A stretch of 64,000 nucleotides of DNA from Desulfoferula mesophila. Lineage in GTDB: Bacteria; Desulfobacterota; Desulfarculia; Desulfarculales; Desulfarculaceae. Within the stretch, counting starts at the first letter, position 1. Each line of letters opens with the position of its first letter. Below are positions 32,712 through 58,604 of the stretch, piece by piece. The stretch covers positions 2,557,501-2,621,500 of the forward strand of contig NZ_AP028679.1 in assembly GCF_037076455.1 (NCBI RefSeq), read 5' to 3'. The notes below the pieces were generated by a model. It did no database searches and was not told the origin of the DNA. It saw only the letters and a list, made by a program, of their open reading frames with translations. Made by a program: the position numbers and the translations under genes.

Positions 32712-32787
32712 TCCCCGGTAGCTCAGTTGGCAGAGCAGGTGGCTGTTAACCACCGGGCCGTTGGTTCGAGTCCGACCCGGGGAGCCA
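32712..32787 (+). tRNA. tRNA-Asn (GTT)
   Basis: A complete 76-nt cloverleaf: acceptor TCCCCGG/CCGGGGA, D arm GCTC/GAGC, anticodon arm GGTGG/CCACC with loop CTGTTAA giving anticodon GTT, T arm with TTCGAGT and encoded CCA. From 32738 the 3' part is duplicated at 57267, so the 3' half is probably supplied by the integrated element. Confidence 0.97.
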
Positions 32788-32830: not shown

Positions 32831-32833
32831 GGC

Positions 32834-32853
32834 GGGTAAGCAGGGGGTAAGCA
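32834..32853 (+). repeat. Paired GGGTAAGCA repeats, left end
   Basis: GGGTAAGCA at 32834 and 32845, exactly 11 bp apart. The same word at the same 11-bp spacing is at the right end of the element near the integrase, so these are candidate integrase arm-binding sites. Confidence 0.7.
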
Positions 32854-32896
32854 TCAGGAGCCATTTCGGCTGCCGGTGGATCCTCAATCGCAAGGA

Positions 32897-33559: not shown

Positions 33560-33838
33560 TGGCACACCTCCTTGCCAAGATAAAAATAACCGTATCAATA
33601 GGTTGCGGAGTAGTTTCGGGGGAGTCGCCACCATTCTGGGTAGTGTCGGTTTCCTGACACTTGGGGCGTGTTGGTCACAGGTGCCCCCCGATGCGATAAA
33701 AACTTATCTATGGAAATTCAGGATAGGTATGGGCCGTTACCAAGGTGTTACCATTTTGATCAGAGGGGCAAAGCGCGAGAGGATTGGGCGGGACAAGTTT
33801 AATTTTATAGCTTAATTACGCGATGTGGTCCGTCTGGG

Positions 33839-37177: not shown

Positions 37178-37410
37178 CGTACTTTTTGATTCGAACAATC
37201 TGCCTTTCGGTGGCAAGAATCTCAATTATTAAAATCATAAAACAACAAACTAATGGGAAACAAGCCGCTTACTCCGGGGACCGCGCCTACCCGGGAGCGG
37301 CTACCTGAGTTAACGCTTACCGGCTTGCGGGGCCGCTGCGTGGCCTCCCAGAGCGGCTTCCCTTTTTATAGGTTCAGGGCCAGGCGAGGGCCTGAGTTTG
37401 GCGGGAGGGA

Positions 37411-39099: not shown

Positions 39100-39564
39100 A
39101 TGGGTTGGTCTGACCTACTACCCGCGCTGGTCACAGGCGGCACAGCCCTGCTTGGCGGCTTGGCGAGCGGAGATTCACTAACTGGCAGTCCACCGCAACC
39201 GGGCAAGAAGAGCGTGCAGCCCTCCACAGCCGAGGGTCAGCAACTATTGGCCTCTTTGCAGAACGACATCTTGCGCGCCAAGCCCATGAACCTGTCCGTG
39301 AAGGGGGTGAACATCCCCATCCTGGACCCGTTCATGAAGGCCAAGGCCCGCACGGCAAAGAATCTGATGGCGGGCGAAGTTGACGGGACGCCCGGAGACG
39401 GAGGGCTGCTTGGCCGCCTCGCATGGCCGATTGGCGCCGCGGCCAACCTGTTGGGCGACGTGGACAGTTCGATGATTGATTTGGGCGACTGGTCCAACGA
39501 TGAGTCTGGCGCCTACGATCCTACCGGATACGATTGGACCGACCTTATCTGGAAGGGCCTGTAA
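39100..39564 (+). CDS. Hypothetical element protein
   Basis: A 154-residue protein with a Gly/Ala-rich hydrophobic N-terminal segment (about residues 7-24: LPALVTGGTALLGGLA) that could be membrane-active, then a polar region rich in Asp. It starts 3 bp after the AlpA stop, and its own stop overlaps the helicase start (TAATG), so it belongs to the replication operon. The N-terminus is reminiscent of small phage virion proteins, but I cannot assign a family. Confidence 0.7.
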   Translation: MGWSDLLPALVTGGTALLGGLASGDSLTGSPPQPGKKSVQPSTAEGQQLLASLQNDILRAKPMNLSVKGVNIPILDPFMKAKARTAKNLMAGEVDGTPGDGGLLGRLAWPIGAAANLLGDVDSSMIDLGDWSNDESGAYDPTGYDWTDLIWKGL

Positions 39565-40802
39565 TGGCTGGTGGGCCGGTAACAGCGCTTCGGGGTGATC
39601 CCGGCCCAGGGAGCGCCGAAGACCACGCCTGCATGAAGGCTGCGGTTGATGCCCGCGTCGAGGAGGAGCGGGCGAATTATGGGCCGCCGCCCAACCCGTT
39701 TGAGTGCAAGCCCTGTCCCGGCGAGTGGTTCCGTGAGGATCCACCACCCCGTAAGTACCTATTTGACGAGGTCGTGCCTGAGGGCTTGGTGGCTGGCCTT
39801 GGTGGTTCGGGGGGCGGGGGCAAGACCTTTATCGCTACGCAAATGGCGATATCCGCCGCGACGGGCAGAACCTTCGGCCCCTTTCAGCCGGCCGGCGCAC
39901 GCCCTGCAATGATAGTGCTGCTTGAGGACGTGGAGTCGGAAGCGCGGCGCCGCCTACATGACATCGGTAAGGTGTGGGGTCTGAGCCCACAACACATAGA
40001 GGCGCTAGAAACGAACCTGTATGTTGTGTCCATGGTCGGCAGGATGCGCCCCCTAGTTGAGCTTGACGCTGCCGGCAACCCCACACTCACCGAGACCTAC
40101 TATCAGCTTTTAGAGGCGGTCATCAAGTTGGGGATACGTTTTCTGCTCGTCGACCCCAAATCGCGAACATCACGGCTTGATGAAAACCGTGCAGAGCATG
40201 CAGTAGCCCACTCCCAGATGTGGGAGCAAATGGTTGCGGCTGTGCCGGGCTTGGTGGTGTTGTTTACGCACCACAGTCCTAAAGGGTTATCAGACCAAGG
40301 GCGCATGAGCGCCGACACAGTTTTTCGGGGGTCGTCAGGCCTTGTTGACTCAATCAGGTGGGGTGCCGGGCTGCGCGTGATGACTCGGGCTGACGCCGAA
40401 ATGTACGGAGTACAAAACCATCGAGACTACGCCGAGCTAGACCTGGTCAAGGTCAACTATGCTCCGCAGTGGCCTGGCCCGGTCTACTTCGAACGTGGCC
40501 CCGGCGGGGTTTTGATTCCCGCAAACCTACAGCGAGACCGCGCGGTGCTAACCACAGAGGCGTTCGCCAGGGCCCTGGCCGAGGACGGCGGCGAGTACAG
40601 CCGGCGCGAGCTAAGCAGGTCGCCTGGGGCTGGTATCAGGGGCAATCTCAAGGACTGGTTGCCCGGCTGGAAAGCCTCCCACCTCGACCGGACGATTGAT
40701 ACCGCGTTGCGCCAGGGCCTTGTGGAAGAGGTCCAGATATTGGCCGGGCCGAAGTCCACACCCAAATTGGTATTACGGCCGGTGACGGAGCCCAGCGCAT
40801 GA
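39564..40802 (+). CDS. RepA-like RecA-fold replicative helicase/ATPase
   Basis: A 412-residue RecA-fold ATPase of the RSF1010 RepA/AAA_25 type. Walker A is GLGGSGGGGKTFIA, the aromatic/acidic LLEDVESEARRR follows, Walker B is RFLLVDPKSR, and VVLFTHHSPKG is the sensor-like strand with paired His typical of this family. Such helicases unwind plasmid or satellite origins. ATG at 39564 overlaps the upstream stop. It is followed by an AT-rich repeat region and the primase gene, a layout typical of an autonomous replication module. Confidence 0.87.
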   Translation: MAGGPVTALRGDPGPGSAEDHACMKAAVDARVEEERANYGPPPNPFECKPCPGEWFREDPPPRKYLFDEVVPEGLVAGLGGSGGGGKTFIATQMAISAATGRTFGPFQPAGARPAMIVLLEDVESEARRRLHDIGKVWGLSPQHIEALETNLYVVSMVGRMRPLVELDAAGNPTLTETYYQLLEAVIKLGIRFLLVDPKSRTSRLDENRAEHAVAHSQMWEQMVAAVPGLVVLFTHHSPKGLSDQGRMSADTVFRGSSGLVDSIRWGAGLRVMTRADAEMYGVQNHRDYAELDLVKVNYAPQWPGPVYFERGPGGVLIPANLQRDRAVLTTEAFARALAEDGGEYSRRELSRSPGAGIRGNLKDWLPGWKASHLDRTIDTALRQGLVEEVQILAGPKSTPKLVLRPVTEPSA

Positions 40803-41008
40803 GTTTATACCCGTCAAATTTTAACCTGGTGGATACCCGGCAAGAAAAAAACATGTCGAGTATTAACCTGCTGTTTTGGCTCGATAATGCCCGCAAACAA
40901 ACCTGTCAAATTTTATACCTGTCGAAAATCAAATCTGCCAAGTTTATCTACCTGATTTTACATAACTTTAAACCTGTCAATACCCGCCCCCCTAAAGGGG
41001 GGGGGAGA
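40803..41008. other. Candidate replication origin with iteron-like repeats
   Basis: AT-rich DNA, contrasting with the GC-rich flanks, holding imperfect copies of ACCTGTCAAATTTTA-type repeats: ACCCGTCAAATTTTAACCTG at 40809, a diverged copy at 40851, ACCTGTCAAATTTTATACCTG-like at 40901 (first 15 bases identical to the consensus), and ACCTGTCAATACCCG at 40972. It ends in a C6/G9 hairpin at 40987-41005. Its position between helicase and primase genes suggests an origin; a promoter region for the primase is an alternative. Confidence 0.55.
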
Positions 41009-41012
41009 AAAG

Positions 41013-41040
41013 CCTGCCGGGAATCGCCGGGCAGGGTTTT
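41013..41040 (+). terminator. Terminator-like stem before the primase gene
   Basis: CCTGCC pairs with GGCAGG, with an inner GG/CC pair, followed by TTTTCTCCC. It may end helicase transcripts or attenuate primase expression. Confidence 0.5.
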
Positions 41041-41086
41041 CTCCCATGCCCCCCTTGGGGCCATGCCGCCTTATCGGAGGGACCCA

Positions 41087-42448
41087 ATGACCACCCTACC
41101 TGACCTGTACCGAGCCGATGGCTACGTGGCCAAGCGGGTGTCCAGCACCGGCGGCGGTGAGCATGCCGGGCCCTGCCCGCACTGCGGTGGCCGGGACCGC
41201 TTCCACCTGTGGCCGGAGACTGGGCGCTGGTGGTGCAGGCAGTGCAACAAGTCGGGGGACCTCCCTGGCTACCTGATGGAGTTTCACGGCATGGCCTATC
41301 CTGCGGCCATGGAACGCCTTGGACTTGACCTGCCCAAGCGGCCCCTACGGGCCGTGGCCAAGTCCCAGCCCACGCCCTGGGCCCCGAAGGCCGCCACGCA
41401 GCCCCTGTCCCTCTGGGCTGATGAAGCTGAGGACCTAGTCACGCGGGCCCACGCCCAACTCTTGGGCGATGCCAAGGCAATTTCGTATCTGAGGGGCCGT
41501 GGTTTGACCCTGGAGAGCATAAAAGCCTTCCGCCTGGGTCTGCTCCTCAAGAATTCGTACCGTGAACGTAGCGCCTGGGGTTTGCCTGAGGTGCTCCATG
41601 AAGACGGGCCGCGCAAAGGCAAGCCCAAGCTGTTGTGGATTCCGGCCGGTATCGTGATCCCCACCTTCGGTCAGGACAACGAGGTGGTGGGCATCAAGAT
41701 TCGGCGTTGGGATGGCGAACCCCGTTATTACCGTCTGCCGGGATCGGCTAACCGCTGTCTGGTGGCGGGCTCCGGCCCCGTGGTGGTTGTGGTTGAGAGC
41801 GAGCTTGATGCTCTGCTGTTGGCCCAGGTGGCCGGTGATATTGTGACCGCCGTGGCCCTGGGGAGCGCTCAAGCGCGGCCGGATGCCGAAACCCACGACC
41901 GGCTCATGGCGGCGGCCACGATCCTCCAAGCCCTCGACTATGACGAGGCCGGGGCCAAGGCAGCCTGGGGCTGGTGTCGCGACATCTACCAGCAAGCCGT
42001 GCGCTGGCCGGTGCCCGAGGGCAAGGACCCAACAGAGGCCCTCCAGGCTGACGTTGACCTTCGCTTGTGGGTCAAGGCGGGCATCGACAGTGCGGCCCCC
42101 AAGAAGGTTTCCCTCGCCCCGCAGCCGCAGGGCTCTGTCGATGAACGATCCCACGGCGATGCGGGTGAGGCTGGAGACAACCAGGAGCAGACCGCGGCTC
42201 CTGAATCTAACACCATCGCGTTTGCATGGGGCCACCACGAAAAGCCAAAGATAGACAACCTGGTGTTGTGCCGAACCTGCGAGACCTTTAAGCACGGATC
42301 AGGTGATACCCGCAACGCTTTTGGCCTTTGCCGGGGCTCGCCCTGGGATGGCCATCCGGGCCAGTGGCCGGGGGCCGAGCACCCTTGTCCAAACTTCAAA
42401 CTCACAGGAGATTTTAATGACAACACCGAAAGACAACTTGCGAGTTAA
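41087..42448 (+). CDS. DNA primase with CHC2-type zinc finger and Toprim domain
   Basis: A 453-residue primase of phage or plasmid type. The zinc-binding N-terminus has CPHCGGRDRFHLW and WWCRQCNKSGD. The Toprim region has VVVVESELDALLLAQ with the catalytic Glu and a later ALDYDEAGAKAAWGW with the acidic pair. The C-terminus contains a further Cys-rich segment (VLCRTCETFKHG). ATG at 41087 has a GGAGG site; the longer open frame upstream covers the AT-rich repeat region and is not protein-like. It primes replication with the RepA-like helicase. Confidence 0.9.
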   Translation: MTTLPDLYRADGYVAKRVSSTGGGEHAGPCPHCGGRDRFHLWPETGRWWCRQCNKSGDLPGYLMEFHGMAYPAAMERLGLDLPKRPLRAVAKSQPTPWAPKAATQPLSLWADEAEDLVTRAHAQLLGDAKAISYLRGRGLTLESIKAFRLGLLLKNSYRERSAWGLPEVLHEDGPRKGKPKLLWIPAGIVIPTFGQDNEVVGIKIRRWDGEPRYYRLPGSANRCLVAGSGPVVVVVESELDALLLAQVAGDIVTAVALGSAQARPDAETHDRLMAAATILQALDYDEAGAKAAWGWCRDIYQQAVRWPVPEGKDPTEALQADVDLRLWVKAGIDSAAPKKVSLAPQPQGSVDERSHGDAGEAGDNQEQTAAPESNTIAFAWGHHEKPKIDNLVLCRTCETFKHGSGDTRNAFGLCRGSPWDGHPGQWPGAEHPCPNFKLTGDFNDNTERQLAS

Positions 42449-44215: not shown

Positions 44216-45256
44216 TCAGGCCACGACTGGGTATTTGGAGTTATAAACTTCTCCGGTGGTCAATAGCTTGTGGGCCAGGACTAGAAGTCTTCTGGCCAAG
44301 GCAACTGCAGCCACCTTCTTTCCCCGCTTCACAATCAGCCTGCGGGACCATTTACGCAAAGGGATCGTGAGATTCTTACTGCGCATGGCCGCCCAGGCGG
44401 CCTGCACCGCGAAATAGCGCATCAGACTTCGTCCCTGGCGGGTTATCCCTCCCCGGCGTTGCACCGCTCCGCTGTCACGGGACGAGGGGATCAGACCGGC
44501 ATAACTGGCCAGCTGATTTGAGCGCCTGAAACGCTTTATGTCATCTATGCCGCTGAGAATGCCCAGGGTGACGATGGGGCCGAAACCGGGCATCTCCAGA
44601 AGCAGTTGCGCCTCAGGCCAACAGCTCAACTCCTCATGGACCAAGGCATCAAACTCCTGCCTTTGCTGCTCCAAGTGGTCCCAGATGCTGCGTTGGGTGA
44701 TCAGGAATGGCTTCATCCAAATGGGCACCGCCGGATTATCAAGGACTTTTTCCCAGTGGCTATCCTTGGGCCATTGGGCCTTTTTCATCTCCACCCCAAC
44801 CGAACGCAGCATGGCCTTTACTGCGTTTACCGTCATATTGCGCTGCTTGAGAATTTGCTGCCGAGTCTGCATCAAAGAGCGGGCCCGACGTGCTTTTTCT
44901 CTAGGCACATTGACCGCGATTCGCTCAGCCAAGCCACCTCGCAGCCCATCGGCAAGGGCCCGGGCATCGTGGCGGTCGCTCTTCTTCTTACTGTCGGCGA
45001 TCATTTTGAATTGACGGGCGTCGACCACGATGGGCTCAATTCCAGCCTCACGCAACACATCCACCACCCACCAGGTCATGGAGCCAGTTTCAAGAGCAAC
45101 CGCTATTTCGTCTTTGGGCCAACGATGGATTGCATCAAGCCATCCAGTTTCACCGCTGGGAACCGTACCCCGGTGGATGACTTTGCCCTCCTGATCCAAA
45201 GCGCAAAAAGTCGTGGTCTTCTTGTGAATGTCCATGCCAACATAAATCATGGTCAA
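44216..45256 (-). CDS. IS110-family transposase
   Basis: A 346-residue DEDD transposase. The N-terminal RuvC-like domain has MIYVGMDIHKKT (D9), ALETGS (E56) and KSDRHDARALADGL (D93/D96); the C-terminal Tnp20 domain has MPGFGPIVTLGILS and LASYAGLIPSSRDSGA with the catalytic Ser region and GGITRQGRSLMRY. IS110 elements integrate without terminal inverted repeats and are guided by a bridge RNA. Full length, so probably active. It separates the replication genes from the Kai operon. Confidence 0.95.
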   Translation of the reverse strand: MTMIYVGMDIHKKTTTFCALDQEGKVIHRGTVPSGETGWLDAIHRWPKDEIAVALETGSMTWWVVDVLREAGIEPIVVDARQFKMIADSKKKSDRHDARALADGLRGGLAERIAVNVPREKARRARSLMQTRQQILKQRNMTVNAVKAMLRSVGVEMKKAQWPKDSHWEKVLDNPAVPIWMKPFLITQRSIWDHLEQQRQEFDALVHEELSCWPEAQLLLEMPGFGPIVTLGILSGIDDIKRFRRSNQLASYAGLIPSSRDSGAVQRRGGITRQGRSLMRYFAVQAAWAAMRSKNLTIPLRKWSRRLIVKRGKKVAAVALARRLLVLAHKLLTTGEVYNSKYPVVA

Positions 45257-45480
45257 CCCTCCCTTTAATGGTCTCTAAGTACCCAAGACCATTGTCCCAA
45301 AGCGGGGGGATGACCACACTCATCTCATCTTAGCATCACCTACACCTCTCCCTTGCCGCGCAAACTGTAGCTTGCCTTACCTCCCTCAAACCTGAATCTC
45401 CCTAGCCCACCCAGGATAAATCAGAGTGCCCCTGATTTCCATGCAGGGGCCTGGACCGTAACACTGGCGAACCGAATCTG
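45257..45480 (-). ncRNA. Candidate IS110 bridge RNA region
   Basis: The 5' non-coding flank of the transposase on its own strand, where bridge RNAs of the IS110 group are encoded. It contains two clean hairpins: an 8-bp stem AATGGTCT/AGACCATT at 45267-45293 and a 7-bp stem GCCCCTG/CAGGGGC at 45428-45450. Boundaries and loops that would pair with donor and target DNA are not determined. Confidence 0.45.
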
Positions 45481-45902
45481 TAGCGAACTTTGGTCTAATC
45501 AATGAAAGGTTCTCAAAATATCCTAATTTTCACTAGGGTTTATTTCAATGAAACCAATGGGATGCAAATAAGTTAAAATATATAATTAATATAAATATTT
45601 ATCTGATCCTATCAGGTATAATTAAGGTACCTTGAATTGAACTGACAAAGGTCATGGCCTGCCCTCGCCAAATGCCAGTAGTGGAGCGTGTTGATAAACC
45701 AACATGGTCCGAGGATAGCGGTTTCTCTGTTGAGATAAACATCTCTGATCACCGCCAGCGCCTTCTTAACATTACTCCCGTTACTCCCGGCAAAATTAAG
45801 GCCGATATTTTCGTGATGGGCAGCAGTGCTCATGCAAGCGTGATTGGTGATTATTGCCAATCCACAGCCCATCATCCGGCATCATTTGAAAGGTAGTTTT
45901 GC
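45481..45902. other. AT-rich gap before kaiC with no supported gene
   Basis: AT-rich DNA, especially 45530-45650, unlike the GC-rich kaiC that follows. It probably contains the kaiC operon promoter. Opposed open frames of about 80 codons cover 45612-45896, but neither has a ribosome site or a recognisable family. A GAAAGG site lies just before kaiC. Confidence 0.5.
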
Positions 45903-47663
45903 ATGGCCGCCAAGAAGGCAACCAGCAGCAATCCCGAGCCCCGAATCCAAGCCGTGAAGAAGCTTCCCACCGGCACCGAAGGTCTGGACGTGGTGCTGCA
46001 AGGCGGCCTGCCCCTGGGCCGCACCACCGCCCTGGTGGGCGGGCCGGGCGGCGGCAAGACCTCCCTGTGCACCAATATCGCCGCCAACTGCGCCGGGCGG
46101 GGCGACGCATGTCTCTATCTCTCCTTTGAGATGAGCCATCAGGCCACCACCCGGGACGCTGCTTCGCTTGGTTTCGACTTCCCCGCGCTGGAAAAGCAGG
46201 GAAGCCTGGTGTTCGTGGACGGGCGACCCGCTTTGGGGTCCCAGAAGAGCGGTGAGTTCGACCTAGGCGGCTTGCTGGCCGTGGTAAAGGGCCTGAGTCG
46301 GGAGAAAAAAGTAAAACTCGTGATCCTGGACGCGGTGGAGGTTCTGCTCCAAGCGTTCAGCGACCCCGATCAACGGATCCAGGCCCTGCAAGAGCTGCAT
46401 ATCTGGCTGGAGGAGAACAACTTTACCTCGCTGATCACCGCGCGAGCTCCGGCGCAATCGGAGGGCCAAACCGACCTGGGCCAGATCGAGTTCATGTGCG
46501 ACTGCTTGGTCTACGTGGATCAGCGGGTGGAGCAGGAAATGACCACCCGGCGCCTGCGGGTGATCAAGTACCGGGGCTCGGACACGGGCCGCAACGAGTA
46601 TCCCTTCATCATCGCCCCCGGCGGCATCAAGCTGATTGCCCTGAGCAGCACCAAGCTGGACAAGGGGCCACTCACATCTACGGTTTCCAGCGGTCACCCG
46701 GTGCTGGACGAGGTGTTAGGTGGCGGTTATCGCCGGGGTTCCTCGGTGCTCTTGACCGGCGAGACCGGCACCGGCAAGACGACCTTCGCCTGCATCTTCG
46801 CCAACGCCGCCTGCCGCAAGGGCGAAAGGGTGCTTTACGTGGGCTTCGAGGAGGCCAGCTCGGCAATTATCGCCGGAATGCGTAGCACAGGCCTGGACCT
46901 GGAGCCTGTGGTCAAAAAGGGCAACCTGAGGTTCCACACGGTTATGCCGGAGTCCATGGGGGGCGAGGAGCACCTCATTCACATCGTGGACCAGGTGAAA
47001 AGCTTCAACCCCGATCATGTCGTCGTGGACGCCATTAGCGCCTTTTTGCGCCTGGGCGGCCCCGAGGCGGGTTTCAACTTTGCGGCTCGCCTGATCACCC
47101 ACCTGAAGTCGCACGGAGTCACTACCCTGCTGCTGAATCAGATCGACGGCATGTCCAATGTCCACGATATCTCGGGCATGGGTGTCTCCACCCTTTTGGA
47201 CTCCCTGGTTTTCCTGCGTTACATGGAATCCGGCGGCGAGATGAACCGCATGCTGCTGGTGCTCAAGTCGCGGGGCATGGCCCACTCCAACCAGTACCGC
47301 GAGTACCTCATGAGTGATCAGGGAATCGAGTTCCTGGACCTGTACAAGGGCACGGGTGAGGTCAAGACCGGAACCGCCCGCAAGGAACAGGAAGCGCGCG
47401 AGGCCGCCGAGCTTCACCGCCGCGAGGCCGTGGTCAAGCAAATGGAGCGGGCGGTGGCTTTAAAGCAGGCCGCTGTCCACAATCAGCGAAATCTGGAGGA
47501 AAGCGAGCTGGCCTTGGCCGAGGCTGAGCTTGCAGCTGCCCGCCTGGAACTTGATCTATGGCATCAGGGGCGGCAAAAGCGGGGAGAGATGCGCCAGGGC
47601 CTCAGGGCCGACTCACCCGAGGCCAAAAAGCCCACCCGCGAGGGCAAGAAGGGCGGTGCGTGA
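45903..47663 (+). CDS. kaiC: KaiC-family double-domain ATPase/kinase with coiled-coil tail
   Basis: A 586-residue KaiC homologue. CI has Walker A GGPGGGKTS at 46-54 and LVILDAVEVLL; CII has TGETGTGKTT at 285-294 and VVVDAISAFL. CII keeps the twin catalytic Glu (GFEEAS, 316-317), but CI has FEM, with only one Glu (E76). The dual phosphosite of cyanobacterial KaiC, Ser-Thr, is present as S429-T430 (GVSTLLDS). After about residue 490 a charged coiled coil and Lys-rich tail replace the cyanobacterial C-terminal peptide. It starts the five-gene operon; no KaiA is present. Confidence 0.95.
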   Translation: MAAKKATSSNPEPRIQAVKKLPTGTEGLDVVLQGGLPLGRTTALVGGPGGGKTSLCTNIAANCAGRGDACLYLSFEMSHQATTRDAASLGFDFPALEKQGSLVFVDGRPALGSQKSGEFDLGGLLAVVKGLSREKKVKLVILDAVEVLLQAFSDPDQRIQALQELHIWLEENNFTSLITARAPAQSEGQTDLGQIEFMCDCLVYVDQRVEQEMTTRRLRVIKYRGSDTGRNEYPFIIAPGGIKLIALSSTKLDKGPLTSTVSSGHPVLDEVLGGGYRRGSSVLLTGETGTGKTTFACIFANAACRKGERVLYVGFEEASSAIIAGMRSTGLDLEPVVKKGNLRFHTVMPESMGGEEHLIHIVDQVKSFNPDHVVVDAISAFLRLGGPEAGFNFAARLITHLKSHGVTTLLLNQIDGMSNVHDISGMGVSTLLDSLVFLRYMESGGEMNRMLLVLKSRGMAHSNQYREYLMSDQGIEFLDLYKGTGEVKTGTARKEQEAREAAELHRREAVVKQMERAVALKQAAVHNQRNLEESELALAEAELAAARLELDLWHQGRQKRGEMRQGLRADSPEAKKPTREGKKGGA

Positions 47664-47959
47664 TGGCCAAGAAAACCAAGCCTGGCCAAAGCCAGCTGCG
47701 GTTCCTGCGGCTGTTCTTGGCCGGTGACGAGCCCAACTCAGCCCTGGCCAGGAAGAACCTGGAGCGCATCGTCAAACAAAACTCCATCGATCCCTCCTTG
47801 GTTGAAGTGGTCGACGTATATGAGGACCACCGCACCGCCCTGGACAACAAGGTATTGCTCACGCCCACCCTGTTGATTGGGCTGCCCGGCAGCGTGACCA
47901 GGGTGGTGGGCAATCTGCAGGACGTGGACAGCTTGATCCACCAGATTGAAGCCGCCTAG
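47663..47959 (+). CDS. kaiB: KaiB-family thioredoxin-like clock protein
   Basis: A 98-residue KaiB homologue. LRFLRLFLAGDEPNSALARKN is the thioredoxin-like opening with SxxA, VEVVDVYEDH the second strand, and LLTPTLLIGLPGSVTRVVGN the cis-proline TPTL strand and GxxxRVxG loop of KaiB. The ATG overlaps the kaiC stop (TGATG). In cyanobacteria KaiB binds the CI ring of KaiC in a phosphorylation-dependent manner; the same contact is inferred here. The start was placed after 35 non-homologous upstream codons. Confidence 0.94.
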   Translation: MAKKTKPGQSQLRFLRLFLAGDEPNSALARKNLERIVKQNSIDPSLVEVVDVYEDHRTALDNKVLLTPTLLIGLPGSVTRVVGNLQDVDSLIHQIEAA

Positions 47960-50900
47960 ATGCCTCAGAACAAAAAGCCGACCTACGAACAGCTCGAGCA
48001 GCGACAGGAAGAGCTGGAGCAGCGCCTGGCCGAGGCAGAGCAGATGCTGGACGCCCTACGCCGTGGCGAGGTGGACGCGGTGCTGGCCCAGGAACAGCCC
48101 ATCGTCCTGTGGCCCAGGGAGTTGGAGCGAAAGCTTAAGGAAAGCGAGACGGCCCTGGTCGAAGCCCAGACCACAGCCAAGATCGGGAGCTGGCAATACG
48201 AAGTAGCCCAGGACAAGCCCATCTGGTCGCAAGAGATGTTTCGCATCTTCGACCGCGACCCCGCCCAAGGCGAACCCCCTTGGTGGGAGCATAAGGATTT
48301 TTTCCATCCCGAGGACTGGGAGCGTCTCGACCAGGCGGTGCGCGACGCTATTGAGAAGGGGCGGCTCTATCGCGAGGAGTTTCGTGTCATCCGCCGCGAC
48401 GGGAGTGTCATCTGGGCCGAGACCATAGGAAAGGCACATCGAAATGAAGCCGGTAAAGTCTTCAGCCTATCTGGAACAGTTCAAGACATAAATGAGCGCA
48501 AAAAAGCCGAACTGGCTTTGTCCGAAAACGAAAAGAAATACCGACGCCTGACAGACAATTCCCCAGACATGATATACCGGATGTCTTTGCCTGATGGTAA
48601 ATATGATTTTGTCAGCAGGGCAGCAGAGACTCTTACTGGATATCCACCAGACACATGGTATGCAAACCCGCTCCTGATCAAGGAGATAATCCCACCGGAC
48701 TGGCATTCCTATTTAAATTTACAATGGAGCCGCCTGCAGAAGGGCGAAGTCCCACCAACTTATGAGTATCAACTCTTGCATAAAAACGGGGAAGTCAGGT
48801 GGATAAACCAGCGCAACGTTGCGGTCCGTGATGAACAAGGCCAACTGATCGCCATTGAAGGTATCCTCAACGATATCACCCAGCGCAAGGAGGCCGAACT
48901 GGCCCTGGCCGATAGTGAAGAGAAATTCCGCACCCTTTATGCCAGCATTCGCGATGCCATCCTCATTGCCGGCACAGACCGTAATATCCTCGATTGCAAC
49001 ATCGCGTTCACGGATGTTTTTGGTTACACCCTGGATGAAATCAGGGGACAAGCAACCTCCGTTTTGTATGAGAGTCAGGAAGAATTCGCCCGTATGGGCC
49101 GGGAGATTCAAGAGCACTTAAAAGATCGCACCTTTGTTGCAACCATTAATTACCGCAGAAAAGATGGAAAAGTCTTCCCAGGGGAGACCAGCGTTTATTA
49201 TCAGACCAACGACCGAGGCGAAGTGGTGGGGTTGGTCGGTATAATCCGGGACATTTCGGCAAAGGTGGCCGCCGAAAAAGAGTTGCGTGAGAGCAGGGAC
49301 CTACTTCACCGGACCGAGGCAATTGCCAAGATCGGCGGCTGGGAGTTGGATGCAAAAACCCTCAGGCAGAAATGGACCGATGGCATTTACCGCATTCACG
49401 AGGTGGACCCGGACTTTGATCCCAATTTGGAAGAGGCAATCGAGTTTTACGCACCCGAGGCCCGCCCGGTCATACGACATGCGGTGGAGCAGGCACTTGA
49501 GAAAGGCGAGCCTTATAATCTGGTGTTGCCTTTCATAACCGCGAAAGGCAGGCATTTGTGGGTCCGTGCCCAGGGAGAGGCCAAGTGGGAAAACGGTGCC
49601 ATAGTGCGCATTGGTGGCACCTTCCAGGACATCACAGCCCAAAAATCAGCCCGAAACCAATTGCGCCTAGAGCGCGATCTTTCTAAGAAGTACCTGGACA
49701 CCGCTGGGGTGATTCTCTTGGCCTTGGACAAGCAGGGCCGCATCGAACTGATCAACCGCAAAGGCTGCCAGCTGCTGGGTTGTCGGGTCGAGGAAGCAGT
49801 GGGCCAGGATTGGTTTACCAGCTACATCCCCGAAGATTCGCGCCAGCGAATTCGGGCCGTGCACGAAAATATCATGGCAGGCATGGTGGAGTTGCACACC
49901 TACGAGGAAAATACGGTGATCAGCGACTCCGGAGAGCAAAGGCTCATTCGCTGGTTCAATACGGTCATAAAGGACTCCGAGAGCAACATCACCGGCACCC
50001 TGAGTTCCGGCGAGGACATCACCGAATACAAAGCCGCCCAGGAAGCCATCAACCGGCTGGCGGCCATTGTGGAATCCTCTCAAGACGCCATCACCGGCAA
50101 GGACCTGCAAGGCATCATCACCTCCTGGAACGATGCTGCCGAGCGCATATACGGCTATACCGCCGAGGAGGCCATAGGCCAGCATATTTCCCTGATCGTG
50201 CCCGAGGACAAGCGTGGCGAAGTGGAGCAGGTGCTCACCGCCGTGGGCCGGGGAGAGGCCATCAGAATCCACGAAACCGTGCGGCGGCGCAAGGACGGCA
50301 GCCTGGTGGATGTGTCGCTATCGGTTTCGCCGGTGCGCGATGACCAGGAACAACTGGTCGGCGCTGCCACCATCGCCCACGAGATCACCGAGCTCAAGTG
50401 GGCCCGCCGGGAAAAGGAGAAACTGGAGAGCCAACTGCGGCAGGCTCAGAAGATGGAGGCCATCGGCACCCTGGCTGGCGGCATAGCCCACGACTTCAAC
50501 AACATCCTAGCGGCGATCATGGGCTACAGCGAGTTGGCCCAGGACAGCCTGCCAGCCGATTCCGAGGCGGCGGAAAACATCAAGACGGTCATTGATTCCG
50601 CCCAGCGGGCCAAGGAACTGACCTGCCAAATACTCTCCTTCAGCCGCCAGACCGAACATGAGCAGGTTGCCTTGGACTTGGAGCCCATCATCAAGGAAAT
50701 CTTGAAAATGCTCCGTGCCACCATACCCACCACCATCGAGATCAAGCAAAACATTCCCGTTGGCACCGGCAAAATCATGGCCGACCCAGTGCAGATACAC
50801 CAGATCCTCCTGAACCTGTGCAACAACGCTGCCCAGGCCATGGAAGAAACGGGTGGGGTATTGAGCGTGGATTTGGATGTGGTTGATATCGACGAGTTGA

Positions 50901-51589
50901 CCGCAGATGGATATGTGGGCCTGGCTCCCGGTAGGTACCAGCGGCTCAGTGTGGGCGACACCGGTGTGGGCATGAAAAGGGAAGTGCAGGAGCGCATTTT
51001 CGAGCCCTTCTACACCACCAAGGATGTGGGCAAGGGGACCGGAATGGGCCTGTCGGTGGTCCACGGCATAGTCAATGACTACGGCGGGGCCATCACGGTC
51101 TACAGCGAACCAGGGGAAGGTTCCACCTTCCATGTTTACCTGCCGCTGGCTGAGGCCAAGCCAGACAAAGAACAGGCATCCTCGTCGCCACCAGAACTGC
51201 GCCGGGGAAGCGAAAGCATACTATTCGTCGATGATGAGCCTGCTCTGGTGGATATCGGCAAGCAAACCTTGTCCCGTCTTGGCTACAAAGTGCAGGGTTT
51301 CACCTCGGCCCAAGAAGCATTGGAAGCCTTTCAATCCGCGCCCGACGAGTTTGACCTGTTAATTACCGACTTCACCATGTCCAAGATGAATGGTGTTCAA
51401 TTGGCCAGCGAAATCCTAGCCATCAAACCGGACCTGCCTATAATCATGTGCACGGGTTTCTCTGAGCGGCTCTCCTCTGTTTCATCACAAGAAATAGGAG
51501 TGACCCGCCTGGCCCTGAAGCCGCTCATGCCCAGAGACATCGCGCGCATCATAAGGGAGGTCTTAGATAAAGACCAAACACACTCTTGA
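47960..51589 (+). CDS. Hybrid sensor histidine kinase with six PAS domains and a receiver domain
   Basis: A 1209-residue soluble kinase starting directly after the kaiB stop. Order: an N-terminal coiled coil (about 1-60), six PAS/PAC units (about 70-180, 183-310, 312-440, 441-565, 574-695, 699-815), a HisKA helix with H844 in [14 protein letters not shown], an HATPase domain with [11 protein letters not shown], and a C-terminal receiver (about 1087-1205) with DDE at 1091-1093 and phosphoacceptor D1137. No membrane segments, so it senses cytoplasmic signals and/or the KaiBC complex. It may act like SasA, though it has no KaiB-like sensor domain. Confidence 0.93.
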
Positions 51590-51790
51590 GCAGATGACCC
51601 GGCAGCGGGCATACCAAATGACCTGTGGTTACGAGGATTGCAACGATGCTGATTACGATAGTTGGTTTGCGCGGCGCCCTGCCTCCCCGCCCCGTTCCCT
51701 CTCGCATTTGCCAAAGGTAAGCTAGTGCCTCCCGACAAGAACAACTCGAAAGAGCACGCTGCACGCGAAAAAAGCGAAAAGGGCCAGCAT

Positions 51791-54360
51791 ATGCATTTCG
51801 AGCAGGAGATAATCTACAGTAAAAAAGCCTTGGCCGTGGACGATGATGCGGCCATCCTGGACATCTTGAGCCAGGCCGCCCGGGGGCGCGTTGATTTGAC
51901 CACCGCCTCGAGCGCCAAGGAAGGCATAGCTCTGCTGGAGGAGCAGGGTCCCTTCGGGGTGGTGATGAGCGATCTCAGGATGCCTGATGTAGACGGCATA
52001 CAGTTCTTGGACCTGGTAAGGAAGCGATGGCCCCACACGGTGCGCATACTGTTCACCGGCTTCGCCGATTTGCAGGCGGCCACCAAAGCCATCAACACCT
52101 CCCAGGTTTTCAGGCTGCTCACCAAACCCGCCCACAACAAGGAAATTCTGGCGGCCCTGTCCGACGGGCTGAAGCAACACCGGATGATAGTGGCCGATGA
52201 GGCCCATCTGCTGGAGCGGGAACGCCAGTTCCGCACCGCTCTGCTGGACCTGCCCCTGCCGGCCATGATCCACGCCGAGGACGGCCAATTGGTTCTGATG
52301 AACCGAGCCTGGCGAGAGATTTCAGGCTGGGCCACCGAGGACATTCCGGACTTTAACGCCTGGCGCCAAAAAGCCCTTGACCGGGATGCGGAGGAAGTTC
52401 AAAAAGAGTTTTCGGAGATATACGCAATCCAAGGCAGAGTGGCCCACGGCGAGCAGACTGTTATCACCAAGCAGGGCGCGCGCCTGGTTTGGGATTTCAG
52501 CTCCGCCTCCCTGGGCGAGATGCCCGACGGCCGCCGCGCCATCATCTCCATCGCCTCGGACGTCACCCAGCGCCGGGCCATGGAGGAGTCCCTGTCCCGA
52601 GCGGGGCAGGTGTTCGACAACGCCACCAACGGTATCCTAGTCACCGATTACGACGGGTCATCCTGGACGTGAACCCCGCCATGTGCCGGATAAGCGGCTA
52701 TAGCCGGGATGAACTCATCGGGCAAAATCCCCGCCTGTTCCGCTCCGGCCGCCACGACGAAGGCTTTTACCACCGCATGTGGCAGGAGATCAAAGGCCCC
52801 GGCTCCTGGCGCGGCGAGATATGGAACCGCCGCAAAAACGGCGAGATATTCCCCGGCCTGCTCACCATCTCTACGGTGGAGGACGGCTCCGGCAAGCGAT
52901 ACGGCTTCGTGGCCAGCACCTCCGACCTCAGCCCCCTGCACCAGGCCCAGGAGCGCACTGAGTACCTAGCCCGACACGACGCCCTGACCAGCCTACCCAA
53001 CCGCGACGCCTTGCAGGACCTGCTGCAAGAGGCCATGGCCCAGGCCGACCAAAGCGGAGAGCAGGTGGTGGTGTCCTATCTGGACCTGGACCAGTTCAAG
53101 TTGGTCAACGAGTCGCTCGGGTACCAGGCGGGGGACCGGACCCTGCAGGAAGTCGCCCGGCGCCTGCGGCGGGGCCTGGAGCAGGACAACAGCCTGGTGC
53201 GCTGGGGCGGCGACCACTTCGTTGCGGTTTCGGTCACCCAGCGGGGCAGCGCGGATGCCGAAGACAAGGCGCGGCGCCTGCTGGAGAGCGTGAATCTTCC
53301 CCTGGATGTGGACGGCCATCGGCTGTTTTTGACCATCAGCGCCGGCCTGAGCCTCTACCCCGGCGACGCCCAAACTCCCGAAGAGCTTGTCCAACACGCC
53401 GACACCGCCATGCACTCGGCCAAGCAGCTGGGCCGCAACCACTACAAAATGTTCTATGAGACCATGAACCAGGAGGTTGTCGAGCGGCTCGCCCTGGAGA
53501 GCGAGCTGCGTACCGCCCTGGAGCAAAAGCAGTTCATTCTGCACTACCAGCCCCAGGTGGAGCTGGCCACCGGCCGGGTGCGGGGCCTTGAGGCCCTTGT
53601 GCGCTGGCGGCACACCCAACGGGGCCTGCTGATGCCCGACCAATTCATTTCCGTAGCCGAAGATGCCGATCTCATCGCGCCCTTGGGCGTCCAAGTGCTG
53701 GAAATGGCCTGCCGACAGATTCGCCTCTGGATGGAGCGGGGGTTGCCGGTGGAACGGGTGGCGGTGAATCTTTCGGCCCACCAGTTATGGGAAGACGACC
53801 TGGCCGAAACCGTCACTGAGATAATGGAAAAGCACGGCTGTCCGCCTCAGCGCTTGGAACTGGAGGTCACCGAAAGCGTGATTATGAGTTCGGTGGAAAA
53901 GGGCCGCGAGGCGCTGGCCAAGCTTCACCGGCTGGGGGTGGAGGTGTCCATAGACGACTTCGGCACCGGCTACAGCTCGCTTTACTATCTCAAAAAGCTG
54001 CCCTTCAGCGTGTTGAAAATCGACAAATCCTTCGTTGATGACCTGCCCGGAGACGCCGACAGCGTCAACATCGTGGCCAGCATCGCCACCCTGGCCCACG
54101 GCATGGGCAAGCAGGTGGTGGTGGAAGGGGTCGAGACCCTCCCCCAGCTGGAGTCGGTGGCCTCCTGTGGCTGCGAGATAGTGCAGGGCTTCTACTTTTC
54201 GCGCCCCCTGCCCCCGGAGGAGATAGAAAGGATCCTCAGCTGCGATCGGCGCCCCTTTGCCAACCGGTTGCCTGGCGCCCGCTGGGTCGGCACTAAATTA
54301 AAACCTCTTTGCAAAATGAAGAGCTTGCCGTTTTTGTTTTTCCCAGGAGTCGCTCGATGA
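51791..54360 (+). pseudogene. Response regulator REC-PAS-PAS-GGDEF-EAL protein, frameshifted in this sequence
   Basis: One gene split at about 52656-52660. The first part has a receiver (DDD near residue 17, phosphoacceptor D61 in SDLRMPDVDG), one PAS, and the start of a second PAS, NATNGILVTDYDG. The next frame resumes precisely with VILDVNPAMCRISGYS, then GGDEF and EAL domains. One base lost in the GGG run of GACGGGTC explains it. The GGDEF signature is GGDHF, so the cyclase is probably inactive, while EALVRW, DDFGTGYSSL and VVEGVET make the EAL phosphodiesterase look active. ATG at 51791; GTG at 51725 is an alternative. Confidence 0.85.
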
Positions 54361-55709
54361 TACGCCTTACCAAAAAAGTCTTCTTCGACCTGGCCATCTG
54401 GATGATCGGGTTGGGCCTGGCCATGGGCGTGGTCTTTCCATTCTTCATGGTGCTCATGGGGGTGCCCGCCCAGATGGTGCTCACCCCTTGGTTTTTCGCC
54501 GCCTGCATGGGTGCTGGCTTCGTGGTCGGAACGGCTAACATAGGCTTGGCTCGCGGCGTGGTGGGGAAGCGGCTTCGCCTGCTGGCCGAACGTATGCGGG
54601 TGGTTGAGGGCAACTTGAATCATATGGCAGCCGGCGACGGCATGGAGGACTGCTCCCCTGAGGACTGCTACATCGCCGTAGACTCCAGCGATGAGATCGG
54701 CGAGAGCGCCCAGGCCTTCAACAATCTGGTGGGCGCCCTGGCCGAGGCCCACCAGAGCGAGGGAGCGGTGAGCGAGTTCAGTCGGCTGCTGGCCAGCCAA
54801 ATGGAGTTGGAGGCATTGACCGAACAGGCCCTGCGGCAGCTCATGGGTCACACCCGGGCCAGCGCCGGGGCCCTGTTGGTGGAAACAGAGGGTGAACTCA
54901 AGATGGCGGCCTCCCATGGCCTGCGGGGCCCTGCCGATTTGGGACAGAGCGACCATGTGCGCGCTGCCATGCGAACCGGCCAGCTACAGCGGGTACTGTT
55001 GCCCCCGGAGTTGACCGTGGAGGGAGTGCTGGCCGACTTCAAGCCCCGCGAGGTGCTGGTGGAGCCGGTGATGTACAAATCGGTGCCCATTGGAGTCATC
55101 GTATTGGCCACGGGTGAGGCCTTCGACGAAAAGGGCCTGCACCGCCTGGAACTGCTGCGCCCAGGGCTGGCTCTGGCCCTAAACAACGGCTTGGCCCACG
55201 AACGTTTGCAGCGCCTGGCCGCCTTGGATCCCCTCACCGGAATCTATAATCGCCGCTTCGGCCTGGCCCGCTTGCAGGAGGAGTTCGGCCGGGCGGTGCG
55301 CGACAGCTCCCCCCTGGGGGTGGTTATGTTCGACCTGGACCATTTCAAGAGCGTCAACGACACGTACGGCCACCTGGTGGGCGACCGTGTGTTGGTCCAC
55401 ATGGCCAAGTTGGCCCGCTCGGTCATGCGCGAGGGCGACGTGTTGGTCCGCTACGGCGGCGAGGAGTTTCTGGCCATCCTGCCCGCCGCTTCCCGGGAAG
55501 ACTGCCGCGCGGTGGGTGAACGCCTGCGCCGCTTGGTACAGGAGAGTGCGGTGCGCGACGGGGAGCAGGAAATACGCATTACGGTGAGCGCCGGGGTGGC
55601 AGCCACCCCGGAACTAACCGTGGACAGCCCCAACGACCTGGTGAGTCAGGCCGACCAAGCGTTGTATGAAGCCAAGGACATGGGCCGCAACCAAGTCAGG
55701 ATCGCCTAA
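54357..55709 (+). CDS. Membrane diguanylate cyclase with HAMP-like and GAF-like regions
   Basis: A 450-residue protein. Two membrane segments (about 9-35 and 42-65) precede a HAMP-like helix, a GAF-like region (about 135-280) and a GGDEF domain with intact GGEEF at 367-371 and the RxxD inhibitory site (REGD) five residues upstream, so it should make c-di-GMP with product inhibition. ATG at 54357 overlaps the stop of the frameshifted regulator (ATGA) and has AGGAG. It is the output gene at the end of the Kai operon. Confidence 0.92.
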   Translation: MIRLTKKVFFDLAIWMIGLGLAMGVVFPFFMVLMGVPAQMVLTPWFFAACMGAGFVVGTANIGLARGVVGKRLRLLAERMRVVEGNLNHMAAGDGMEDCSPEDCYIAVDSSDEIGESAQAFNNLVGALAEAHQSEGAVSEFSRLLASQMELEALTEQALRQLMGHTRASAGALLVETEGELKMAASHGLRGPADLGQSDHVRAAMRTGQLQRVLLPPELTVEGVLADFKPREVLVEPVMYKSVPIGVIVLATGEAFDEKGLHRLELLRPGLALALNNGLAHERLQRLAALDPLTGIYNRRFGLARLQEEFGRAVRDSSPLGVVMFDLDHFKSVNDTYGHLVGDRVLVHMAKLARSVMREGDVLVRYGGEEFLAILPAASREDCRAVGERLRRLVQESAVRDGEQEIRITVSAGVAATPELTVDSPNDLVSQADQALYEAKDMGRNQVRIA

Positions 55710-55871: not shown

Positions 55872-57095
55872 TCATTTAACTTTTGATCGTCTTTGACGCT
55901 TGGTAAGGGGCAACACCTTCTTTTCTGGCTTCCGGGCCATGGCCCCGGCAATTCTCTCTCCGATCTGATTTGCGGCCTGCTTAAGGGGATCAGCGGGCAG
56001 GTGGCTATAACGCATGGTCGTCTGGGCCTGGGTGTGCCCCAGCAGCTTTCCTATGGTGGGATAGCTCATGCCAACCCCGGCCCCGACGCTGGCGAACGAG
56101 TGTCGCAGATCGTGCAGCCGCACATCATCCAGCCCTGCCCTCTCCCGTATCCGCCGCCAGGGGCGCTGTAGGTTGACCAGCGGCCTCATGGGCCGGGCGC
56201 CTGGGCAGACAAATTGATTGCCGGCCTGGCGTGGGGTGCTTTCAAGTAGGTCCAGGGCGACTTGCCCCAACGGAACAAATCGTTGTCCGGTTTTGCTGTC
56301 CCTCAGGTTAAGGCACCCGCGCTCCCAATCAACGTCGTCCCATCTAAGGTTCAGGACCTCAGAGAGCCGGCAGCCGGTAAAAATCAACAGTCGCACGGCG
56401 GTGATCACGGCGGGCAGTTCCGAGTTCTCTTGTTCAACCTCAGCCAAGGCTTTTCCCAGCCGGGCCCATTCGTCCTCGGACAAATAGCGCTGCCGCTTTT
56501 CCTCCTTGTACTTCTGGATATGCCTGGCGGGGTTGGTGCCATCAGGCCGGAGTCCCCAAGCCTCGGCCAAGTTGAACATCTTGCGCACTACCTCGAGGAC
56601 TCGGTTGGCCTGGTATGACTTTTCTCGCAGGCTGTGGTGCAGTTTCGCTATCTGCTCGCGGGAAACCTCATCGACGTTGTAGCGACCCAGGGCGGGCAGG
56701 ATGTAGTGATCAACGAGGTAACGATCTTTACGTATACTCTCCGACTTTTTTTTGACCTCGCTATGCTCGGCCATGTAACGAGAAGCCAGTTGTGCGACCG
56801 TAGGAGCGCCCCTGGCCGCAATACGCTCCTCGGCGGGGTCGTTGCCCCGGTCAACCTCCGATAGCTTCTCTCGGGCGGTCTTACGGGCCTGATCAAGCGT
56901 CATACGACCGTATTTCCCCAGGGTGACACGCCGGCTCCGGCCCTGAGCGTTGTAATACTGGATGCAAAACGATTTTACGCTAGAGGGTTTTACCCTCACC
57001 CCCAGACCCACCTGTTCTGTGTCCCAAAAAACCAGGTCTGATCCTTCGGCCTTGACGCCATCAAGCAGTCTCTTGGTTAATTTCACCTTTGGCAT
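55872..57095 (-). CDS. Tyrosine integrase (P4/prophage type)
   Basis: A 407-residue integrase. The N-terminal DUF4102-like domain (LTKRLLDGVKAEG, LVFWDTEQVGLGVRVKPS) is the arm-binding part of P4-type integrases. The catalytic residues are R243 (TGCRLSEV), H328 and R331 (HDLRHSFAS), H354 (LLGHTQ) and Y363 (MRYSHL). ATG at 57095 has a GGGAGG site. Its gene lies at the attR end, and its own leader overlaps one GGGTAAGCA repeat, so it may autoregulate. Confidence 0.95.
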   Translation of the reverse strand: MPKVKLTKRLLDGVKAEGSDLVFWDTEQVGLGVRVKPSSVKSFCIQYYNAQGRSRRVTLGKYGRMTLDQARKTAREKLSEVDRGNDPAEERIAARGAPTVAQLASRYMAEHSEVKKKSESIRKDRYLVDHYILPALGRYNVDEVSREQIAKLHHSLREKSYQANRVLEVVRKMFNLAEAWGLRPDGTNPARHIQKYKEEKRQRYLSEDEWARLGKALAEVEQENSELPAVITAVRLLIFTGCRLSEVLNLRWDDVDWERGCLNLRDSKTGQRFVPLGQVALDLLESTPRQAGNQFVCPGARPMRPLVNLQRPWRRIRERAGLDDVRLHDLRHSFASVGAGVGMSYPTIGKLLGHTQAQTTMRYSHLPADPLKQAANQIGERIAGAMARKPEKKVLPLTKRQRRSKVK

Positions 57096-57106
57096 GGCAT
57101 CCTCCC

Positions 57107-57163
57107 GGGTAAGCAGAGCCCCCAAATTGCCCGGGTAAGCATTGGGTAAGCACCGGGTAAGTA
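57107..57163 (+). repeat. GGGTAAGCA repeats at the integrase end
   Basis: GGGTAAGCA at 57107, 57133 and 57144, and GGGTAAGTA at 57155, the last three at exact 11-bp spacing. The same pattern is at the left end. Candidate integrase arm-type sites; the copy at 57107 lies in the integrase leader. Confidence 0.75.
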
Positions 57164-57266
57164 ATCCACGGGTAGAATAGCGTAAAGCACGGTATCATTT
57201 CAAGCAGTAACTATGCTATTTAACGAAGTGTGTCGTTTTGGAGAGTAAACGAGCGGAGCTTAAACT

Positions 57267-57319
57267 GGTGGCTGTTAACCACCGGGCCGCTGGTTCGAGT
57301 CCGACCCGGGGAGCCAAAA
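57267..57319 (+). repeat. attR: displaced 3' part of tRNA-Asn
   Basis: 53 bp identical to 32738-32790 except one base. It lacks the acceptor 5' strand and D arm, so it is not a tRNA gene. Presumably the original 3' end pushed away by integration. Confidence 0.92.
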
Positions 57320-57324
57320 GATTC

Positions 57325-57358
57325 AAGGGCCTAGGCGATTTCGCCTGGGCCCTTTTTT
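57325..57358 (+). terminator. Original tRNA-Asn terminator beyond attR
   Basis: AAGGGCC-AGGCG paired with CGCCT-GGCCCTT around a short loop, then TTTTTT. A diverged counterpart of the stem after attL. Confidence 0.82.
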
Positions 57359-57482: not shown

Positions 57483-58604
57483 CTAGCTAAGATCCTCCAG
57501 GGCCCGGTCTACCTCTTCTTGCAGCAGCCCCCGGGCCGTCCCGGCGGCCTCTCGCAGGGCCCGCGCCGCCGCGTCTCCGCCGATGCGCCCCAGGGCCCAG
57601 GCGCACATGGCCCGCACCCGCTCGTCCTGGTTTTTCCCCAGGGCCTGGACCAGGTCCGCCACGTAGGCCTCATCGCGAGTGTTGCCCATGACCCGGGCCA
57701 CGTTCATCTTCCAGCGCCACAGGTCCTTTTCGCTCATGTAGAACATGTGGGGCCAGATGCGCCGTTTAAAGTATTCCAGGTCCATGTGCAAGAGCTTGGG
57801 CAACTGGAAGTCCTCGGCCTTGGCCGCCGCCTTGGGGTTAACCGGCAGCTCGGCGGCCAGCCAGGGGGCGTTGCGGGGGCAGACGTTCTGGCAGTGGTCG
57901 CAGCCGTAGACCCACAGGCCCATGGGCTCCCTGAGCTCCCTGGGGGTCAGGCCCTCGCCGTAGTAAGACAGATAGGAGATGCAGCGCCGGGGGTCCAGCT
58001 TGCGCGGCCCTTTGAGGGCCCCGGTGGGGCAGGCGCTCAGGCAGGAGTTTTTGCACCAGTCGGGGCAGCCCACCCCCATGCTGGGTTGGCCGGGGGGCAG
58101 CTCGGCGTCGCAGACCAAAGCGATGGGCAACACCCAGGAGCCGCGCCGTCCCGCCCGGTTGGAATAGAACAAGCAGTTCTTGCCGAAGTCCCCCATGCCG
58201 GCCCGGGCCGCGGCCAGACGGTGGGACAGGTTCCAAGGAAACTCGGTGGCCACCCCCCGCTCCCGCAGGAACGAGCGGAAGGCCTTGATGCGCCGGCTCA
58301 GGCCGTCCTTGGTCACCCGGTCGTCATCCAGGTAGCAACGGCCGAAGTGCCTCTCCAGGGAGGCGGGGTAGGCCCGGCTAAAGTACAGCTCCAGGAGCAC
58401 GATGATGGATTTGGCCCCGGGCAACACCCGGGCCGGGTCCACCCCGGCCTCCAGGTCCAGGCCCAGAGCCTTGGTCCAGGCGTACTCGGCCCGGCGCTCG
58501 GCCAGCACCTCGCTCTGGTGGCTGAAGGGCTCGGCAGTGGTGAAGCCGATGTCAACGAAGCCCAATTCCCTCGCCATATTCCTTAGCTCGTCCGCGCTAA
58601 CCAT
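57483..58604 (-). CDS. QueG-like iron-sulfur reductase with HEAT-repeat C-terminus
   Basis: A 373-residue protein related to epoxyqueuosine reductase. The N-terminal domain has AGMGDFGKNCLFYS; the ferredoxin part has C180-x3-C-x3-C-x3-CP (unlike the CxxCxxCxxxCP spacing of classical QueG) and CDHCQNVCPRN for a second 4Fe-4S cluster. The end is HEAT-like: RVRAMCAWALGRIGG. It may be a QueG homologue with altered cluster spacing or a related corrinoid/FeS protein; queuosine function is inferred. Confidence 0.8.
   Translation of the reverse strand: MVSADELRNMARELGFVDIGFTTAEPFSHQSEVLAERRAEYAWTKALGLDLEAGVDPARVLPGAKSIIVLLELYFSRAYPASLERHFGRCYLDDDRVTKDGLSRRIKAFRSFLRERGVATEFPWNLSHRLAAARAGMGDFGKNCLFYSNRAGRRGSWVLPIALVCDAELPPGQPSMGVGCPDWCKNSCLSACPTGALKGPRKLDPRRCISYLSYYGEGLTPRELREPMGLWVYGCDHCQNVCPRNAPWLAAELPVNPKAAAKAEDFQLPKLLHMDLEYFKRRIWPHMFYMSEKDLWRWKMNVARVMGNTRDEAYVADLVQALGKNQDERVRAMCAWALGRIGGDAAARALREAAGTARGLLQEEVDRALEDLS

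Follow-up and report, generated by a model that had tools for sequence, protein, structure and literature searches.

A kaiC-kaiB-kinase operon with c-di-GMP genes on a tRNA-Asn integrative element of Desulfoferula mesophila, and an N-terminal module common to kai-adjacent output proteins

The window, a stretch of 64,000 nucleotides corresponding to bases 2557501-2621500 of the one-contig 4.48 Mb genome of Desulfoferula mesophila, contains at 45903-55709, all on the + strand, genes coding for KaiC, KaiB, a hybrid kinase, a c-di-GMP regulator and a GGDEF protein, in this order, as assigned by ORF and Pfam analyses. The core is a kaiC-kaiB-kinase operon like those of R. sphaeroides and R. palustris, with no KaiA recognised in the element ORFs scanned; this is a widespread and already published arrangement. 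Its carrier, judged from its sequence features, is a 24.5 kb tRNA-Asn integrative element. The locus is an ordinary core in a real element, with an unusual, lineage-specific c-di-GMP attachment, and the most useful by-product of its analysis is a module at the N-terminus of the kinase: what is new here is that kai-adjacent kinases and PAS-GGDEF-EAL proteins have this module in common. The overall reading, in which the operon is element cargo with an added c-di-GMP output, running from a KaiC timer through the kinase to the regulator, is proposed at slightly less than even chances. The features of the operon are the following:

45430-45897, + strand: stretch before kaiC that is also conserved in congener G001 (78.6%)
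45903-47663, + strand: kaiC, 586 aa, with two ATPase domains, S429/T430 phosphosites and a C-terminal coil extension (Pfam; alignment)
47663-47959, + strand: kaiB, 98 aa (Pfam PF07689 over cut-off; PDB matches)
47960-51589, + strand: hybrid kinase with six PAS, HisKA, HATPase and REC domains (Pfam; motif positions)
47981-48130, + strand: N-terminal module of the kinase, proposed Kai docking module, predicted as helix and hairpin (HMM, genome scans)
51791-52672, + strand: REC-PAS part of the split regulator (ORF, Pfam; start by homology)
52660-54360, + strand: second part of the regulator, PAS-GGDEF(GGDHF)-EAL, whose ORF lies in a different frame and is open from 52489 (ORF, Pfam, motifs)
54357-55709, + strand: membrane-anchored GGDEF protein, GGEEF with RxxD I-site (Pfam; motifs)

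The junctions between the genes are as originally predicted: kaiC and kaiB overlap by 1 nt (TGATG), the kinase start adjoins the kaiB stop with no gap, the regulator and the cyclase overlap by 4 nt (ATGA), and 201 bp separate the kinase from the regulator when the start of the latter is set at ATG 51791, as in its homologues. The two overlaps and the abutting kaiB and kinase genes are as expected under translational coupling. Promoter and terminator sites in the operon were no more numerous than in shuffled sequences, and transcript boundaries are therefore not claimed. The predicted order of five genes is also found, with each gene placed as stated; however, the fourth consists of two ORFs and not of one. 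A small ORF (45612-45875, - strand), divergent from kaiC, lies within the conserved 470 bp upstream of it and is conserved in G001 (L050:11572-12042).

KaiC scores over the cut-off of NCBIfam NF006799; alignment and motifs revealed two domains, with both P-loops and the S/T phosphosites present and the CII Glu pair kept. Its closest PDB relative by phmmer is R. sphaeroides KaiC, and the match to 8dba/8fwi extends to residue 552 of 586, the C-terminal coil included; the R. sphaeroides protein is a KaiA-independent, ATP/ADP-driven hourglass, whose C-terminal coil has been described (PMC10076222). Among named relatives the closest is a Desulfarculaceae MAG, whose KaiC is 81% identical. Directly downstream of kaiC are kaiB and the PAS histidine kinase, and in the element ORFs covered by the domain searches nothing resembling KaiA was recognised.

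The locus was compared with 80 named loci having a related KaiC and with about 30 further Desulfobacterota loci. Most of the 80 consist of kaiC-kaiB(-kaiB) followed by a PAS kinase, while in four of them (Nitrospira and Nitrospirae, Thiodictyon, Thiocystis) a PAS-GGDEF-EAL protein takes the place of the kinase; the pattern of kaiC-kaiB followed by either type of protein was already stated by De Luca 2011 (PMC3164672). A kaiC-kaiB-PAS kinase order is reported for R. palustris (PMC4794148) and a kaiC-kaiB-PAS kinase-CheY operon for Bradyrhizobium (PMC3899966). The order kaiC-kaiB-kinase is plasmid-borne in R. sphaeroides, Pararhizobium and Rhizobium, the plasmids of the last two being typed as conjugative; KaiC was not found on phages or viral contigs. 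The suggestion that the module is undescribed in kind is not supported: the core is published and is found also on conjugative plasmids, and GGDEF/EAL neighbours of kaiCB are likewise published. The Legionella kai operon presumably has a GGDEF/EAL neighbour as well, but it is not counted here as evidence. To our knowledge, the signal output of KaiBC systems outside cyanobacteria is still an open question.

R. sphaeroides, which has kaiC-kaiB-HWE kinase on plasmid pB, and R. palustris share with the present locus the order kaiC-kaiB-PAS kinase and, as far as the element ORFs scanned show, the lack of KaiA, and the likeness of R. sphaeroides extends to the coil-extended KaiC and to the same N-terminal kinase module. 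However, neither has a REC-PAS-PAS-GGDEF-EAL or GGDEF gene attached in the stretch compared, and the R. sphaeroides kinase is simpler and carried by plasmid pB rather than by a tRNA element. In the kaiC-kaiB-(kaiB)-PAS-GGDEF-EAL arrangement known from Nitrospira, Thiodictyon and Thiocystis, the kai operon is likewise directly joined to a GGDEF-EAL protein, which carries the N-terminal module in Thiodictyon and Thiocystis and a relaxed form of it in Nitrospira; there it replaces the kinase, whereas here a module-bearing kinase precedes a REC-headed regulator without the module. Pararhizobium (p3) and Rhizobium sp. BG4 (pRPC2) have, as the element here would, a transferable kaiCB-kinase set, but on a plasmid typed as conjugative. 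In Rhizobium sp. BG4 the set is followed, at a distance of about 1.4 kb, by an EAL-domain gene, whose product differs from the regulator described here in having another start and no N-terminal REC.

The original prediction that the operon lies inside an integrated element is confirmed. The tRNA-Asn gene is intact, the two ends are marked by att repeats, and the element has genes for an integrase and for replication:

32712-32787, + strand: intact tRNA-Asn(gtt), left attachment site, with the repeat from 32738 (ARAGORN; direct repeat)
32831-32856, no strand: GGGTAAG-type repeats within the left end, which may serve as arm sites of the integrase (sequence)
39534-42448, + strand: AAA_25 ATPase (39534-40802) and DnaG-like primase (40799-42448), replication pair (Pfam, NCBIfam, PHROGs)
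44216-45256, - strand: IS110 transposase (Pfam; 100% identical copy elsewhere in the genome)
55872-57125, - strand: tyrosine integrase (Pfam, PHROG_1)
57132-57171, no strand: GGGTAAG-type repeats within the right end, which may likewise serve as arm sites (sequence)
57267-57358, + strand: right attachment site, tRNA-Asn 3′ part and terminator (repeat; match to the native site of congeners)

The left and right att copies are 86% identical over 92 nt, with a further 88 nt at 80%, and the integrase adjoins the right-hand tRNA-Asn copy. In congeners, the symporter-tRNA-Asn pair is kept, and the sequence natively present at the 3′ end of the tRNA-Asn is 82-90% identical to the right-hand copy. Pfam and PHROGs recognised no conjugation genes among the element ORFs scanned. 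A homologue of the ORF at 39100 adjoins the same tRNA in G006, indicating that the tRNA-Asn site was used more than once.

Several further observations concern the element and its surroundings. Elsewhere in the genome (L018:10935-11207 and 11985-12056, C1:2650935-2652056), a fragment of the queG C-terminus (88% over 273 bp) is followed, after about 0.8 kb, by the tRNA-Asn 3′ end in a third copy; together they suggest repeated insertions at tRNA-Asn. The IS110 copies at 44216-45256 of the window, upstream of kaiC, and at L012:16010-17398 are 100% identical over 1389 bp, which suggests a recent transposition. The element also carries the gene of a large AAA_16/BTAD regulator of 1128 aa (33839-37225, - strand). 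Just beyond the att copies lie the ends of a HEAT-repeat gene (32897-33634, - strand) and of queG (57483-58604, - strand), whose product has HEAT repeats at its end, and the sequence between att and gene is similar on the two sides (80% over 88 nt).

The fourth gene is split by a one-base frameshift near 52655, at a short G-run, so that the REC-PAS frame stops at 52672. Its homologues are single ORFs in five of five cases (the paralogous locus, G001, G005, G006 and G007), the paralogue forming one continuous frame at L019:1082-3580. A programmed frameshift is not favoured, as no slippery heptamer was seen by eye and the relatives are single ORFs. An assembly or base-calling error, which would leave the module fully intact, has nearly an even chance: the difference falls at a short G-run, apart from it the two halves show good conservation, with about 70% identity to G001, and the remaining long ORFs of the window are unbroken; however, a true recent inactivation would look identical. 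If the split is real, the element kinase may act through the intact paralogous regulator, or the c-di-GMP branch may be in decay.

The EAL catalytic motifs and the REC aspartate are present in the regulator. Since both copies keep the EAL residues and have a degenerate GGDEF (GGDHF in the window, GADQF in the paralogue), the regulator is more likely a phosphodiesterase, while the GGEEF and RxxD I-site of the last gene product make it a likely c-di-GMP (diguanylate) cyclase. A design with one protein degrading and one making the messenger, as had been suggested, is nevertheless not conserved, because the gene of the degrader is frameshifted and the GGDEF gene at a second kai locus is of a different type.

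This second locus, in the same genome, had not been pointed out originally. Compared with the window, identity is 67% for its kaiC, 57% for its kaiB and 53% for its kinase, a hybrid with five PAS domains. Beside them lies a REC-PAS-PAS-GGDEF-EAL gene that is intact and points away from kaiC, followed by a GGDEF gene, which differs from that of the window outside the GGDEF domain. The paralogous kai locus (L011:2235-8933) adjoins N-ATPase (AtpR-type) genes. The only two full copies of the regulator in the genome sit at its only two kaiC-kaiB loci, in different orientations; the probability of both adjacencies arising by chance would be roughly 1e-5, if they were independent.

The original prediction was to fail if, among other things, the gene order was a one-off or a common fixed locus. 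For the kaiC-kaiB-kinase core, a one-off accident is rejected, the core being common among the compared loci. None of these loci, however, has the five genes in exactly this layout; a hybrid kinase together with a REC-PAS-PAS-GGDEF-EAL protein was found at none of about 110 other kai loci, several of them on short contigs. For the EAL link, the second locus weakens the idea of an accident, and the kai-regulator linkage is lineage-specific rather than one-off.

In four congeners (G001, G005, G006 and G007) the regulator is a standalone gene, with about 17 kb of synteny around it in G001 and G006 and at another site in G005 and G007; in D. mesophila the regions corresponding to these native sites are present without the gene. 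The regulator is not near kai in the kai-bearing congeners G001, G005 and G006, and G007 has the regulator with no kai detected. The distribution of kai in the genus is patchy, with a divergent form in G006 and different surroundings in each of the three genomes; it was not detected in G002, G003, G004 and G007. Identity to G001 is about 70% for the window regulator, 69% for the ordinary gene queG and 86% for kaiC, a pattern that fits, without proving it, kai genes moving between lineages and a regulator joined to them within the genus.

These data bear also on another explanation, that only kaiC-kaiB-kinase is a functional unit, the c-di-GMP genes being neighbours assembled on the element, with a decaying regulator and a kinase signaling elsewhere. 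It agrees with the presence of the core without c-di-GMP genes in nearly all relatives, with the standalone regulator of the four congeners, with the frameshift and with the different GGDEF gene at the second locus, but not easily with the fact that, in a genome of 4.48 Mb, both regulator copies adjoin the only two kaiC-kaiB loci; it is considered a real but minority possibility, at roughly one chance in three.

The preferred reading is that of a timer connected to c-di-GMP. KaiC, coil-extended and predicted to be self-phosphorylating and responsive to ATP/ADP and KaiB, would act as an hourglass timer or energy sensor, and the hybrid kinase would sense its state by means of the helix-hairpin module at the kinase N-terminus. 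From there phosphate would pass to the kinase's own REC and/or to that of the regulator, as the domains and the double linkage suggest; the phosphorylated PAS-PAS-GGDEF-EAL regulator, a phosphodiesterase by its motifs, would change c-di-GMP levels, and the last protein would make the messenger. As the phosphodiesterase gene of the window is split, the signal may reach c-di-GMP solely by way of the paralogous locus, whose regulator is intact. The phosphorelay is plausible, given the intact catalytic motifs and the linkage of a kinase and an EAL gene at both kai loci. If true, the locus would be a transferable unit that connects KaiBC to c-di-GMP and of which a single genome has two diverged forms.

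The N-terminal module is recognisable as RLAEAE..L.AIR.GEVDA at the start of kai-adjacent kinases and PAS-GGDEF-EAL proteins alike. An HMM built from half of the strict cases and tested on the held-out remainder, in loci chosen for kai, matched 47 of 51 kai-adjacent proteins and none of the 34 remaining PAS/kinase ORFs of these loci. An HMM from all cases matched 70 ORFs, each of them directly downstream of kaiC/kaiB, the adjacency of three (L131, L068, L076) being taken from the locus survey. A scan of 395 genomes of the phylum, in which limited candidates per genome were scored and matches away from kai may be missed, placed 37 of the 39 matches listed beside kaiC or kaiB: 36 within about 2.2 kb downstream of KaiC and one beside KaiB at a contig end (G415); the two others (G285:C303, G162:C216) have no adjacent kai. 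In the genus, where all candidates were scored, the only strong matches are the four kai kinases. The module is present in the plasmid-borne R. sphaeroides and rhizobial kinases and absent from KaiC-only loci (L057, L058, L059), from loci with kaiB before kaiC (L056, L210) and also from a few kaiC-kaiB loci (L055, L064, L271). Pfam has no family at this position, and no paper was retrieved by a literature text search for the motif string. In the AlphaFold prediction the first PAS is preceded by a helix and a short hairpin, the hairpin with low confidence.

The module is proposed to be a Kai docking module. More generally, in non-cyanobacterial and archaeal kaiC-kaiB operons a helix-hairpin of about 50 residues, at the N-terminus of the kinase or PAS-GGDEF-EAL protein that follows, may be a shared and so far unrecognised interface that reads KaiBC, extended here by phosphorelay to a kai-linked c-di-GMP regulator; this is held with caution, as a possibility clearly short of even. 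Its competitor, rated close to evenly balanced, is a dimerisation or signaling helix that belongs to a single lineage of kinases and was passed on together with the operon, without binding Kai. The position directly before the first PAS domain and the predicted fold would suit such a helix, and co-inheritance could account for the association with kai; however, the module heads proteins with unrelated outputs, either histidine kinase or GGDEF-EAL, and nearly all the phylum-wide matches listed are at kai loci. As a mark of output proteins across many phyla, the module would allow a cheap direct test and the prediction of outputs from sequence. Two forms of the module seem to exist among kai loci L060-L139: one with TL.GA(D/E) after GEVDA, often accompanied by two kaiB genes, and the other with KP.Y.EL before GEVDA, often with one kaiB.
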